From the NCBI GenBank assembly GCA_021323535.1, contig JAJONO010000049.1:1-56680 (forward strand): a stretch of DNA of 56,680 nucleotides. Reading direction: 5' to 3'. This document shows, in pieces, positions 28,200-35,768 of the stretch (the stretch's first letter is position 1; every line of letters begins with the position of its first letter). The stretch is from Bacteroidota bacterium (GTDB taxonomy: Bacteria > Bacteroidota > Bacteroidia > B-17B0 > Aurantibacillaceae). Made by a program: the position numbers and the translations under genes. Below the pieces are notes generated by a model. That model was not told where the DNA came from. It was given only the letters and a program-made list of their open reading frames with translations, and did not search any database.

Positions 28200-28559
28200 T
28201 CATAGATTAGATGAAAAACTGATTTTGAACAATCGCTGCATTGGTTGAATAAACCAGCTTTTCTTATTTTTTTTACGGGCCAGTTGTATCGTTTTCATAA
28301 ATCCCGAAATACGGTTGCTGTCTGAATTCTCTTCAATCATTATTCCTTTTTTGCCATCGCTGGTCTCAATAGCAAAAAGAACAAAACTGTTCGCGGGGTC
28401 GTTTTCTTCTTCACCGGTATAAAATCCCGAGATCTTTACTTCATAAGGTTTGTAAACTCTGTTGTTCTCATTAATGATGTGACAGGCAGTGCAGGGACTA
28501 AAGTTCTCTGTAAATCCTTTTTTTCTGAGGTCCTCTATGCGTTGTATTTTTGTTTCCAT
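28200..28559 (-). CDS. small conserved Bacteroidota protein (often misnamed PRPP synthetase)
   Basis: 119 residues from ATG 28559; the longer frame to 28652 has an unlikely N-terminus. The pattern IEDLRKKGFTENFSPC, VYKPYEVKISGFYTGEEEND, then VLFAIETSDGKKGIMIEENS matches a family of ~100-residue Bacteroidota proteins commonly labelled phosphoribosylpyrophosphate synthetase. It is far too small for that enzyme and lacks the PRPP loop. True function is unknown. The C-terminus is ~25 residues longer than usual. Confidence 0.7.
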   Translation of the reverse strand: METKIQRIEDLRKKGFTENFSPCTACHIINENNRVYKPYEVKISGFYTGEEENDPANSFVLFAIETSDGKKGIMIEENSDSNRISGFMKTIQLARKKNKKSWFIQPMQRLFKISFSSNL

Positions 28560-28760
28560 AGTACTTGGTTTCTTTACATATAATGTTTCAAATATGATGC
28601 CAGCTCTGTTTGAGGAATAAAACGAGTCGCCTCTGTATCGTCTAACTGGCAAGGATTACAGGTGAACATGGTCCGGAATAGCATCTCTTTTATGGTGTAC
28701 TGAAAATACGGCTATGGAGTTGCAGCTAAGGGCGACTTTTTTCTTACATTCGGCTAGGAA

Positions 28761-30291: not shown

Positions 30292-30773
30292 CAGGACAGG
30301 AGTTCTATGATAAAATAGCCACCTTGAATGAGCGGCAGAAAAGTCGCGATATGGAACAGTATCTCCTGGCGCTCTATTTATTAGTTCTCGAAAATAAAGA
30401 CCGCGACCCTAGTCTGGAATTATTTCTCGAATTATTTGATAAAGCTTTTGTTGGTGAACCATGGAAATTTGATCCCGCCTGGCTGAAAATAACTGAGCAT
30501 CCTGCCATAAGTAACGAAACCGATAGCATTAATTTTACTTTACAACTATTACGATTTCATATAACCGAGTTTCACAGAATGAGGGGAAAACAACTAGAGG
30601 ACAAACAAAGGTATTTTGGAGTAACATCCGAAACCGGTACCATCTGGTATAACTTCGACCCCTTTACTTATCTTGAACGTGGTTGCTGTGGAATGGGAGG
30701 TATTGAACAAGATCAGGAAATCACCTGGAACGACTTCGCTGATATTCTTGAAGGAGGAAGGGTTTACGAATGA
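30288..30773 (+). CDS. protein of unknown function in the kptA operon
   Basis: 161 residues, no signal peptide, probably cytoplasmic. Mostly helical (MTGQEFYDKIATLNERQKSR, LLALYLLVLENKDRDPS), then a motif-like TYLERGCCGMGGIEQDQEIT near the C-terminus with adjacent cysteines. I recognise no family. It overlaps the YARHG gene by 4 bp (ATGA) and kptA by 4 bp, so it is translated in step with both and probably functions with one of them. Confidence 0.7.
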   Translation: MTGQEFYDKIATLNERQKSRDMEQYLLALYLLVLENKDRDPSLELFLELFDKAFVGEPWKFDPAWLKITEHPAISNETDSINFTLQLLRFHITEFHRMRGKQLEDKQRYFGVTSETGTIWYNFDPFTYLERGCCGMGGIEQDQEITWNDFADILEGGRVYE

Positions 30774-31321
30774 TAAGTGAAAAACAAAATATTAAGATCA
30801 GCAAATTTCTTAGTCTCGTGTTGCGTCACAAACCTGAAGCAATAGGAATAACCCTTGACGAAAATGGCTGGACCAACGTTGACATTCTCATTGAGAAAGT
30901 AAACGCCGCCGGGACTTTTATTACACCCGCTGTTCTGAAACACGTGGTGGATACCAATTCTAAAAAACGTTTTGCTTTCAGCGATGATCTCAAAATGATA
31001 CGAGCCAGCCAGGGACATTCCATCGACATTGAACTTGGTTACGAGCCCAAAGAACCTCCTGCCATTCTCTATCATGGAACGGCAGAACCTTTTATTGAAT
31101 CCATTTTTAAAACAGGACTTGAAAAAAGAAAACGCCATCATGTGCATTTAAGTAAGGATTTTGAAACAGCCACGAAAGTGGGCCAGCGTCATGGTAAAGT
31201 TATTGTTCTGGAAGTGTTATCGGGAGAAATGCATAACGAAGGCTTCGAATTTTTTGTCTCCGAAAATAATGTCTGGCTCACGGATCATGTGCCGGTGAAA
31301 TATCTCAGAAAAAATCTATAA
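30770..31321 (+). CDS. kptA: RNA 2'-phosphotransferase (Tpt1/KptA family)
   Basis: 183 residues. KptA/Tpt1 removes an internal RNA 2'-phosphate using NAD+, giving ADP-ribose 1'',2''-cyclic phosphate and nicotinamide. The N-terminal lobe has KFLSLVLRHKPEAIGITLDE with the RH pair, and the C-terminal lobe has the NAD-binding YHGT and HHVHLSKDFETATKVGQRHG. Length and motifs are normal. Bacteria lack the tRNA splicing that Tpt1 serves in yeast, so the physiological substrate is unclear (RNA repair or ADP-ribosylation have been proposed). It is the last gene of a four-gene overlapping operon ending at a palindromic repeat. Confidence 0.92.
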   Translation: MISEKQNIKISKFLSLVLRHKPEAIGITLDENGWTNVDILIEKVNAAGTFITPAVLKHVVDTNSKKRFAFSDDLKMIRASQGHSIDIELGYEPKEPPAILYHGTAEPFIESIFKTGLEKRKRHHVHLSKDFETATKVGQRHGKVIVLEVLSGEMHNEGFEFFVSENNVWLTDHVPVKYLRKNL

Positions 31322-32729: not shown

Positions 32730-33350
32730 ATGGCTAAAAAAGATAAACGTATCGATGATTACATTGCTAAATCGGCCGACTTTGCAAAACCGGTTTTAAA
32801 ACATTTTCGTGAATTGGTTCATAAAGCTTGTCCTGATGTTGAAGAAACCATGAAGTGGAGTTTTCCCCACTTTGATTATAAAGGTCAGGTGATGTGCAGC
32901 ATGGCCTCGTTCAAACAACACTGCGCGATAGGTTTCTGGAAAGCATCTTTGATGAAAAGCGGCGATTCACTTGTTGCCAAAGCAAAAACAGAAGAGGCCA
33001 TGGGTCATCTTGGAAAAATAACATCACTCAAAGATCTGCCCAAAGATTCTGTCATAACAAAATACATCAAGGAAGCCATGGATCTGAATGATAAAGGAAT
33101 TAAACTTTCTCCCAAAACAAAACCCACAGCTAAAAAAGAACTTGAAATTCCTGCATACTTCATGTCTGCGGTAAAGAAAAATAAAGCGGCACTGAAAACA
33201 TTCGAAGGATTCAGCAATTCCAACAAAAAAGAATATGTGACCTGGGTAACAGAAGCTAAAACCGAAGAAACCCGCAATACAAGATTAGAAACGGCCGTGG
33301 AGTGGATGAGCGAAGGGAAGATACGCCACTGGAAATACGCGAAGAAGTAA
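32730..33350 (+). CDS. YdeI/OmdA-like DUF1801 protein
   Basis: 206 residues, cytoplasmic. The N-terminal DUF1801-type domain (about 1-115: LVHKACPDVEETMKWSFPHF, then MASFKQHCAIGFWK) is joined to a C-terminal OmdA-like domain (about 135-206: IPAYFMSAVKKNKAALKTFE ... EETRNTRLETAVEWMSEGK). This matches the YdeI/OmpD-associated family. Biochemical role is unknown. The start lies 25 bp after the previous stop, so they may be co-transcribed. Confidence 0.85.
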   Translation: MAKKDKRIDDYIAKSADFAKPVLKHFRELVHKACPDVEETMKWSFPHFDYKGQVMCSMASFKQHCAIGFWKASLMKSGDSLVAKAKTEEAMGHLGKITSLKDLPKDSVITKYIKEAMDLNDKGIKLSPKTKPTAKKELEIPAYFMSAVKKNKAALKTFEGFSNSNKKEYVTWVTEAKTEETRNTRLETAVEWMSEGKIRHWKYAKK

Positions 33351-33400
33351 AAGTGCTGAGAGACTTCGCAAAAGTTTCACTCGCCCGGCAACTTCTGTAA

Positions 33401-33765
33401 AAAAGTAAAGGCTTCCCGCAGGAAGCCTTAATATCAGATGGTTTTTCCGGCATCTTAAGTCCTAGTGTTAGTAGGTTATAAGTGCCATATTCAATCGAAA
33501 TGGGCCTTTGGCTTTATCAATTGAAGTTCCATTCTTACAAGTACTCTTTCAAATACCGTGCCAATTGATTTTAAAAATATGGGCTCCCGTTAAGGAGCCC
33601 AATTTTGGATGATTTCCGGTATCTAAACCCAGTATGAAAAGATTTAAAGTTCCGGCTCCAATGTATTGTCATTTCTGACTTTACAATGAAATCATTCTTA
33701 CAGACATACATTCAAAAGGCATGCCTGTGTTGATAAGAGCTGATTGATTAAAAATGGGGAATTTT
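33401..33765. repeat. tandem pair of ~175-bp non-coding units with hairpins
   Basis: The 489-bp gap between genes holds two diverged copies in tandem (about 33401-33580 and 33571-33762). Each opens with a hairpin: AAGGCTTCC/GGAAGCCTT at 33408-33429, and GGGCTCC/GGAGCCC at 33581-33600. Both then carry GATGGTTTTTCCGGCATCTT or GATGATTTCCGGTATCTAA, then CATTCTTACA, then TTCAAA ... TGCC, and end in TGATT ... AAAAAT(AT)GGG. No coding frame is conserved. On the minus strand the hairpins are followed by T-rich runs, so the units could be small RNAs with intrinsic terminators. Confidence 0.65.
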
Positions 33766-33839
33766 TTGGGTAAAGTGTGGAATAAGACGCCTTTCATACT
33801 CTTTATGTAAATGCTTTTTCACTACATTTATCTTCCCCT

Positions 33840-35768
33840 ATGAGCAGGATATTTTGCCTTTTTTTGCTTTTCTTTTTTGCCTCTGAAAAATTCACTGCGC
33901 AACGAGCCCCCGATTTTTTACATAAACTCGAATCACGTAAAGATTTTGACATGATGAAAGGGGAGCCTCTCACCAAGAACTTTAATGGTATTGAATGTGT
34001 GAAGCTGGTGTATGTTGTTTCAAACAAAAAACTGTATTATCTCGAATCCAAACGTTACCGCTGGCACCATCTCTTCACCAAAGAAGTGCTGGGCGATATG
34101 GATGATTTAGAACAATTCAATCAGAAAAATTATAGCAATACTTCTTCCAGAAAATACATATTGGCTACATTCAATTACAATGTTAATACAAAAAATTATT
34201 TCCTGCAGTTCGCCGCCGCCGATAACCCCAGCGATGAACTTATCAATGAATTGGTAGATAAAGTAAAAAGTTCATTCTTTAAACAAGAGCAGTTTAAAAT
34301 TCTGCTTAACTCTACGGTTCTTCTTCGCAGGAAAAAAGAACTGGAAAAAAATCACCAGACAATGACCAGCGATGAACTTTTTAAGAACCAGGGTTACCAG
34401 GCTATTTACCAGGGCAGGACTTACGGTATTTTAAAATTCATTGATGCCGATTCTCTACAGCAAAATAAAAACTACTCTAATTGTATTCTCGTTTTAAAAG
34501 GTAATTCCAATATGATCCCGGTTTGCAAAGCGGTGGTCACAACAGAATTTCAAACACCACTGAGCCACATTTGTTTGCTTACTGCCAGCAGAAAAAGTCC
34601 TTGCGCGGCGCAGAAAGATGTTTTTATGAATACATCTTACCGGCAACTTCAGAATAAATTTGTAGAGGTCGTGGTAGGAAAAGAGGCTGTAAGTATAAAA
34701 CTTGCCGACCCGACACTTGTAAAAAATAAAAAGCCTGTCAAAAAATTAAAATTAAAAGTGGATACTTCCACGACAACGATTGCCGATCTTACAACCTTAT
34801 CTTACAAACAAAAATCTACTTATGGTTCTAAAGCATGTAACCTGGCTGAATTAAAAAAAATAAAGCACCAGAAACAAAATCTTAACACGCCGGCCAATGC
34901 GTTCGGGATCCCGTTTTATTACTATGCGCAACATATCAAAAAAAATAAAATACATGGGATCATCAGCGAAATGCTTCGTGATTCGGTGACAATGAAAAAC
35001 GATAGCCTTATCGAAAAACGCCTGAAACGTATCCGCCAGGGAATAAAAAATGTTCCTATTGATCCTGCCCTTCTTCAGAAAGTAAACGCCATGTGTATCG
35101 ACCGTTTTGGAAAGAACAAAACACGCTTTCGTTCTTCTTCTAATTGTGAAGATGAAGCCAACTTTAACGGGGCCGGACTTTACACCTCCGACACCGGAAT
35201 TCCTGGGGATACTTCCAAAAAAATTGAAACAGCTATAAAGAAAGTGTGGGCCAGTTTGTGGACGATGCGAGCTTTTAAAGAACGTGAATTTTTTAATGTG
35301 GATCATTCAACGGTTTTTATGGCTGTACTTGTTCATCCTGCATTTGATAATGAAGCGGTAAATGGTGTAGCAGTTACAAAAAATCTTTACCGCAGTTACG
35401 ATTTCGGATTTGTGATCAATATTCAGAAAGGTGAAGAAGAAGTGGTGGCGCCAAAAACAGGAACCATCTGCGAACAAGTGGTGTCATACATGAACAATAA
35501 CTTCGCCGATTTTTACAATAAGAACCGTACAGCCGACTGGATCAGTTTTTCCACGTTGAGTCCGGGTGTTTCATTGTTATCAAGCGAAGAATTATTGCAA
35601 CTAACCCAGCAGCTCGAAAGCATCAAAAAATATTTTTATGATCTGTACAAACTCTGGAGTAAAACCGAATATCGTGATTTTGCAATGGATGTAGAATTCA
35701 AGATCCTTGAAGGCCCCGATAAAAAACGAACAATTCTGTTCAAGCAGGCGAGACCTTATAATAATTAA
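33840..35768 (+). CDS. exported protein with swivel-His-like domain and dikinase ATP-grasp domain
   Basis: 642 residues. It starts with a signal peptide (SRIFCLFLLFFFASEKFTAQ). A region of no known type (about 25-190) precedes a phosphohistidine-swivel-like segment (about 190-290) containing TTEFQTPLSHICLLTASRKS; the TPLSH motif matches the His site of PEP synthase and glucan water dikinase. The C-terminal 340 residues (YGSKACNLAEL, RFRSSSNCEDEANFNGAGLY, FMAVLVHPAFDNEAVNGVAV, FKQARPY) are a PEP/pyruvate dikinase N-terminal ATP-grasp domain. The order swivel-then-ATP-grasp is that of glucan water dikinases, not of PEP synthase. The PEP/pyruvate barrel is missing. Substrate is unknown. Confidence 0.8.
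   Translation: MSRIFCLFLLFFFASEKFTAQRAPDFLHKLESRKDFDMMKGEPLTKNFNGIECVKLVYVVSNKKLYYLESKRYRWHHLFTKEVLGDMDDLEQFNQKNYSNTSSRKYILATFNYNVNTKNYFLQFAAADNPSDELINELVDKVKSSFFKQEQFKILLNSTVLLRRKKELEKNHQTMTSDELFKNQGYQAIYQGRTYGILKFIDADSLQQNKNYSNCILVLKGNSNMIPVCKAVVTTEFQTPLSHICLLTASRKSPCAAQKDVFMNTSYRQLQNKFVEVVVGKEAVSIKLADPTLVKNKKPVKKLKLKVDTSTTTIADLTTLSYKQKSTYGSKACNLAELKKIKHQKQNLNTPANAFGIPFYYYAQHIKKNKIHGIISEMLRDSVTMKNDSLIEKRLKRIRQGIKNVPIDPALLQKVNAMCIDRFGKNKTRFRSSSNCEDEANFNGAGLYTSDTGIPGDTSKKIETAIKKVWASLWTMRAFKEREFFNVDHSTVFMAVLVHPAFDNEAVNGVAVTKNLYRSYDFGFVINIQKGEEEVVAPKTGTICEQVVSYMNNNFADFYNKNRTADWISFSTLSPGVSLLSSEELLQLTQQLESIKKYFYDLYKLWSKTEYRDFAMDVEFKILEGPDKKRTILFKQARPYNN

Follow-up and report, generated by a model that had tools for sequence, protein, structure and literature searches.

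To our knowledge, the regulatory RNAs of Bacteroidota beyond Bacteroides and Flavobacterium are little charted. The Qrr small RNAs (sRNAs) of Vibrio are sigma-54-dependent. They are described as sibling sRNAs (PMC6075780), as are GlmY and GlmZ of enterobacteria, which are under sigma-54 control (PMC4211561). In Bacteroides thetaiotaomicron, FopS is described as a set of paralogous sRNAs with a single-stranded 5' stretch and a canonical sigma-ABfr promoter, and GibS as having a PM2 promoter with elements at -10 and -30 (PMC11697453, PMC7366714). In Flavobacterium psychrophilum, the motif SM4 comprises typical -24/-12 sigma-54 promoters, and a single sigma-54 is reported to serve a regulon of envelope stress and protein quality control (PMC9723704). 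Several RpoN paralogues with divided tasks are described in Rhodobacter sphaeroides (PMC12316311). Here we describe two tandem units, U1 and U2, which we consider rather likely to be sibling trans-acting sRNA genes read from a variant sigma-54-type promoter, most likely by the factor that we call RpoN2, within a stress-type regulon. Because kindred sibling sRNAs are known elsewhere, the RNA family would be new, but the kind to which it belongs would not.

The window, the whole stretch of 56,680 nt that we analyzed, belongs to a genome of about 5.3 Mb (G000). Its 489-bp gap at 33351-33839 is flanked by a gene for a 206-aa OmdA/DUF1801 protein (32730-33350), which is the convergent neighbor of U1, and by a gene for a 642-aa protein with a PPDK_N domain (33840-35768), both on the plus strand. 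On the minus strand, U1 reads as an sRNA gene of about 138 nt (33399-33536), with a predicted 5' end and a 3' end set at the end of its T run, and U2 as one of about 127 nt (33573-33699), again with a predicted 5' end. From box to T run the units extend from 33563 to 33399 and from 33726 to 33573, and 33727-33765 lies upstream of the U2 box. Each unit presents, in order, a promoter-like box, four bases, TTTGAA, eleven bases, and a predicted RNA starting AAGAATG. Aligned head to tail from promoter to terminator, U1 and U2 are 68% identical over aligned positions, and their alignment score of 127 was reached by none of 1000 dinucleotide shuffles (mean 55.4, maximum 82). Likewise, the plus-strand halves 33401-33575 and 33576-33765 scored 124 (shuffle mean 63.7, SD 6.7, maximum 92; 0/1000). 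An earlier note on this DNA had claimed two diverged units that align in order over their full length, and the comparison bears this out. A gapless repeat finder did not report the pair, as expected of copies that are diverged and gapped. While the units proposed in that note stand, its layout does not, since it placed the GC-rich hairpin first, and with the genes read on the minus strand this hairpin is the 3' terminator. The note had left the strand open and had not noticed the promoter-like box; we find minus-strand genes, each preceded by such a box. A gene for a KptA/Tpt1-type RNA 2'-phosphotransferase also lies near the sRNA locus (30770-31321, plus strand).

Synteny and covariance searches located ten copies in six genomes, namely three each in G000 and G012 and one each in G011, G028, G035, and G077, and two of the G012 copies (G012a and G012b) again stand in tandem. 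When the 381-bp element was compared with 40 genus genomes by blastn, it returned, besides itself, six short matches in five genomes (E 0.001-0.007). The first relative, a single unit upstream of a similar 642-aa gene in G011, was found by synteny, and no unit was seen by eye in the stretch upstream of this gene in G010, G021, and G030. A covariance model of three copies (R1), run over the 40 genus genomes, found the G028 copy, the tandem pair in G012, and a third copy in G000 (G000c), which lies on another contig and adjoins a SET-domain gene; the R1 matches L020, L021, L022, and L025 were rejected as terminator-only. A model of seven copies (R2), run over 87 genomes of the family, gave 12 matches outside its training set, the top three being candidates in G012, G077, and G035 and the other nine being rejected as terminator-only. 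These three distant members were added to a ten-copy model (R3) after their upstream sequence had been inspected. R3 gave strong matches in five of the 40 genus genomes (three in G000, three in G012, and one each in G011, G028, and G035), and the sixth genome with a copy, G077, belongs to another genus. U1 and U2 are matches of the covariance model but also part of its training set. The R3 rows that are not members, 32 plus two, were all rejected as terminator-only, and weak R3 matches in G038 and G002 (at the places of L033 and L034) were not counted as copies. In a class-wide set of 395 genomes, accepted copies were confined to G000 and G012, under stricter filters and in a sample that may omit the other four genomes.

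The neighborhood is conserved together with the RNA. In G000, G012, and G028, the sRNA lies between a gene similar to OmdA/DUF1801 (the likeness in G012 and G028 was judged by eye) and an ABC-F gene, with the 642-aa gene also intervening in G000, and in G011 the sRNA adjoins the 642-aa gene. An origin of the units as relics of a small MITE or REP-like mobile repeat would fit with several diverged copies, two of them in tandem. However, this synteny in four genomes, the presence of only three strong copies in the 5.3-Mb G000 genome, and the box and terminator kept by each copy make such an origin hardly credible. Moreover, blastn gave no match between the element and phages and, among plasmids, nothing beyond a match of 34 bases that lies over the terminator and recurs in five Klebsiella records (E 0.03), and the two inverted pairs reported by the repeat finder do not bound the units. 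The earlier note named no known RNA family, and Rfam 15 agrees, since neither the window nor any of seven member loci gave a match at the gathering score; its permissive mode gave four matches far below their cut-offs, the best at 23.5 bits against a cut-off of 55.

The copies share an RNA architecture in which a closing stem, P1, encloses two hairpins, the variable P2 and the conserved P3; a terminator consisting of a GC hairpin and a T run follows. P1 pairs AUGG with CCAU or AUGA with UCAU. In U1, its 5' side AUGG occupies 33529-33532 and its 3' side 33438-33441, as indicated by fold and covariation (helix 1), and P3, with an internal loop UAA/ACU and the 7-nt loop CUAACAC, occupies 33449-33486 (helices 2 and 3), all on the minus strand. 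While P3 stems vary, the loop CNNAYAC persists by eye in U1, G011, G028, G012b, G077, and G035; it is one base shorter in G012a and is departed from in U2, G000c, and G012c. The intrinsic terminator of U1 (33399-33429, minus strand) consists of a stem with a UGCG tetraloop and then TTTACTTTTTT, and that of U2 (33573-33600, minus strand) consists of GGGCTCCTTAACGGGAGCCC and then ATATTTTT, both recognized by sequence and fold. The terminator loop reads C(UGCG)G on the minus strand of U1 and C(UUCG)G in G011, G028, G012b, and G012c. Two further claims of the earlier note hold here: the hairpin bases differ while pairing is kept, with the sequences as it had written them and changes on both sides of helix 4, and T-rich runs follow the hairpins on the minus strand. 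In the nine bases after the hairpin, T is richer on the minus than on the other strand in nine of ten copies, the exception being G077 (6 against 7).

Minus-strand folding gave z scores of -4.75 for U1, -4.72 for U2, and -5.27 for the third of the first three copies, and -4.11, -3.62, -2.25, and -4.92 for four further copies, so that seven of ten were scored in all. The plus strand of the first three copies folds well too (-3.36, -4.10, and -4.74), and folding alone thus leaves the strand undecided. In alignments fitted to the structure, 93.9% of cells pair across seven copies, with 12 of 24 pairs changed on both sides, and 92.6% across ten copies, with compensatory changes at 16 of 24 pairs. 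Both pairing values were reached by 0/500 shuffles and were destroyed by sliding the partners. A MAFFT alignment of the first three copies, made from sequence only, held 5/24 double-changed pairs, a count reached by 7/500 shuffles. The three distant members do not give the full consensus when folded as single sequences, G035 and G012c departing from it most, and the membership of these two therefore rests on model score, box, and terminator. Homologous structured elements in related genomes and covarying base pairs in the aligned copies were both sought and found, supporting the earlier suggestion of a possible small-RNA family under selection on RNA structure.

These features bear on three other accounts of the hairpins. 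If they merely terminated transcription of the convergent gene and belonged to no separate RNA, their position directly after the stop of the OmdA gene would be explained, and the opposite-strand tracts do contain some T. However, conservation and covariation extend about 100 nt past the terminator, through P1 and P3, a box stands at near-fixed spacing, and weak terminator-like matches elsewhere lack that box, all of which makes this account very unlikely. A cis-acting leader, whether riboswitch or attenuator, is equally improbable. The combination of a structured junction with an intrinsic terminator after it does resemble a leader, and a same-strand gene lies downstream at G012c (about 90 nt) and G035 (about 25 nt), so a leader role could apply to those two; at eight of ten copies, U1 and U2 included, no same-strand gene follows. 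The next gene is convergent at U1, G028, G012a, G000c, G077, and, by eye, G011, and U2 and G012b are each followed by another unit before any gene is reached. It is extremely unlikely that the conserved AUG of P1 opens a tiny leaderless peptide gene. An ATG does lie a few bases past the predicted start in several copies, and short frames were seen by eye in U1, U2, G011, G028, and G012a. However, these frames vary by eye in length (about 4-20 codons) and in sequence, and the AUG is part of P1. The reading of U1 and U2 as sibling sRNA genes agrees with what is found in two genomes, where at least two homologous RNA genes each have their own promoter-like site and terminator: U1, U2, and G000c in G000, and three in G012.

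Upstream of U1 on the minus strand lie a -24-like box, TGGCAC (33558-33563), and a -12-like T-rich element without GC, TTTGAA (33548-33553), of a site class that also occurs in the sampled genomes. U2 has the sequence AGGCAT, whose first base is off TGGCAY, at 33721-33726 and TTTGAA at 33711-33716, likewise on the minus strand. A box [TAC]GG[CT]A[CTG] is present 13-20 nt before the model start in 10/10 members and in 0/28 of the weaker matches checked, which were 28 of the 34 non-member R3 rows, the other six having no locus. The box lies outside all covariance models, model position 1 being 14-18 nt downstream of it. The 12 R2 matches outside the training set offer a comparison that is less open to circularity: the best three have the box and the other nine do not, with a chance of about 2% each for the eight-position window. 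TGGCAY itself occurs in seven of ten copies, and the others read AGGCAT (U2), TGGCAG (G035), and CGGTAT (G012c).

The GG of the -24 element stands at a near-fixed distance from the predicted RNA start in all ten copies, 27 nt in nine and 28 nt in G011. A GG with a partner ten bases on and about 27 nt from the predicted start has the geometry of sigma-54, whose canonical promoter is given as TGGCACN5-7TTGCT (PMC12316311). The canonical -12 GC ten bases after GG is found in 0/10 copies, and we therefore do not file the site as a canonical sigma-54 promoter. It may well work like one despite the GC-less -12. No convincing shared activator site was found upstream of the copies. Inspection by eye revealed no consistent sigma-ABfr site (TAnnTTTG).

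The same class of site is enriched in the sampled non-coding DNA of the genomes that encode RpoN2. In samples of 149-531 kb per genome, TTT stood 3-5 nt after non-coding TGGCAY in 19/36 cases in G000, 6/13 in G011, 22/40 in G012, and 7/13 in G028, compared with 19/208, 11/133, 51/494, and 14/120 in coding DNA (Fisher p = 7.6e-9, 1.1e-3, 8.0e-11, and 8.6e-4, respectively). No significant excess was present in the samples of G030 (3/22), G032 (2/10), and G035 (1/14), and G077, which has no close RpoN2, showed a weak one (4/8, p 0.007). In the RpoN2 genomes, 34/54 sites were followed at 25-75 nt by the start of a same-strand ORF, compared with 11/48 other non-coding TGGCAY; in the four other genomes sampled, 4/10 bipartite sites lay before ORF starts, against 8/44. 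At offset 27, where the sRNAs begin, 37 of the 54 sites, a set that includes some sRNA sites, have an A. The -12 pair was TA in 17 of the 54 and GC in three, being absent as GC from 51.

Sites of this class often lie 35-60 nt before genes, some of them stress-like. A same-strand gene follows within 150 nt at 41 sites, and eight of the 41 downstream proteins were scanned: DUF2383, SDR, BON, OmpA/glycine-zipper, and DUF4142 pass their cut-offs, the scores for a dksA/traR zinc finger and for a shortened response regulator fall below theirs, and one protein has no match. A response regulator of full length, encoded downstream of a site of this class, passes its cut-off. The gene-linked sites are on the rpoN2 contig in 11/11 cases in G000 and 13/19 in G012, and off it in 6/6 in G011 and 4/5 in G028; the samples over-represent the rpoN2 neighborhood. 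Counting TGGCAYN{2,7}TTTRNA in 12 whole genomes did not separate the groups, since 12/12 exceeded the reversed control and most RpoN2-negative genomes did so by more than the RpoN2 genomes; the signal emerges once non-coding DNA and spacing are taken into account. G021 had the most matches in this count (325, against 117-230 in the others), perhaps reflecting a repeat family. Within the window, a same-class site, TGGCAT CATA TTTGAA, falls at 28557-28602 on the minus strand, and its box begins 43 nt ahead of the start codon (ATG) of a small gene (28203-28559, minus strand). This gene has no Pfam match, and similar genes in G011, G012, and G028 are also preceded by such a site.

All 40 genus genomes carry rpoN, and four of the six copy-bearing genomes (G000, G011, G012, and G028) encode a second, divergent, full-length sigma-54, RpoN2. 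In G000 it is 34% identical to RpoN1, and RpoN2 is 80-81% identical among the four with G000 as the reference. It has the AID, CBD, and DBD domains, as scanned in G000, and an RpoN box that we read as ARRTVVKYRE. The sRNA is present in all four RpoN2 genomes and, among the other 36 genus genomes, only in G035. By ABC-F identity, the four rank among the closest relatives, and their close relationship means that ancestry alone could yield this co-occurrence. G041 has a 50% RpoN2 homologue and no accepted sRNA copy. Eight of the 40 genomes (G002, G003, G009, G010, G013, G014, G016, and G031) encode a second sigma-54 of a different class, with RpoN1-like scores, and none of these eight has the sRNA.

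The rpoN2 gene (L082 8807-11407, minus strand) neighbors YtxH, holin-like, and iron-permease genes. In three genomes, the YtxH gene is preceded by a conserved CGGCACGATTATTCCATA, a possible self-control site. A second highly conserved non-coding element lies near rpoN2, at about 14767-14890 of L082 (G000:C16), 14434-14560 of L083, and 7311-7440 of L085. It lies behind its own TGGCAT...TTTA site and has a T run as well as a long stem formed by GGGGAGATGGA and TCCATCTCCCC; the L083 copy has no Rfam match.

The identity of the sigma factor is the weakest link of our interpretation, because G035 and G077 hold copies with the box but no close RpoN2. Together with the presence of rpoN throughout the genus, these two genomes favor an account in which the same sRNA genes are transcribed by ordinary sigma-54 (RpoN1) or another factor and RpoN2 merely occurs in the same clade. 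However, the single-rpoN genomes G030 and G032 lack the TGGCAY-N3-5-TTT signal, and the -12 GC expected of a standard sigma-54 is missing. We regard this account as unlikely, although it carries real weight.

The explanation that we favor, with RpoN2 as the most likely factor, can be set out as follows. U1 and U2 would be sibling minus-strand sRNA genes, each equipped with a separate promoter-like box and terminator. TGGCAY and the T-rich partner about ten bases on would be read by an RNA polymerase carrying a sigma-54-type factor, with transcription starting about 27 nt past the box. The transcript is predicted to fold with P1 closing P2 and P3 and to end at the intrinsic terminator. The promoter-like site ahead of each copy is unusual in type, and for this reason these regulators are probably switched on with stress genes, the sRNA being made alongside a stress-type protein regulon. 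It may then act in trans, and the P3 arm is the part most likely to do so, either by pairing with mRNAs or by binding a protein.

More tentatively, and with somewhat less confidence, we propose that in the second sigma-54 of a Bacteroidota clade the -12 preference has shifted from GC to T-rich/TA while the -24 TGGCAY is kept. It would command its own stress regulon, including structured sibling sRNAs and at least one conserved RNA beside rpoN2, and would thus form an orthogonal system with an RNA arm. The locus adds a structured RNA family unmatched in Rfam, along with a promoter class that can be tested. It also suggests that a sigma-54, once duplicated, can alter how it recognizes the -12 element and acquire a stress regulon that includes sRNAs of its own.

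Our literature search, made mainly at abstract level, turned up no recognized description of this RNA or of a second Bacteroidota sigma-54 that uses a GC-less -12. Comparing the family with the described systems, GlmY/GlmZ and Qrr likewise comprise several related RNAs per genome and a promoter element of the -24 kind. However, U1 and U2 have no Rfam match to either (folds were compared only through Rfam), lack the -12 GC, and belong to another phylum. According to their published outlines, FopS and GibS are similar in being paralogous sRNA families of Bacteroidota with an intrinsic terminator. Unlike FopS, the present family is structured from P1 on and has a -24-like box, with no consistent sigma-ABfr site by eye, and, unlike GibS with its PM2 promoter, it combines a closed junction with that box. 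Rhodobacter sphaeroides also has several sigma-54 genes, whereas its account as far as consulted (PMC12316311) does not link them to a GC-less -12 and leaves sRNAs unmentioned. The SM4 system of F. psychrophilum, as summarized in its report, likewise has a -24 element and a stress-type regulon, whereas the sites described here lack the -12 GC and the RpoN2 genomes encode a second sigma-54.
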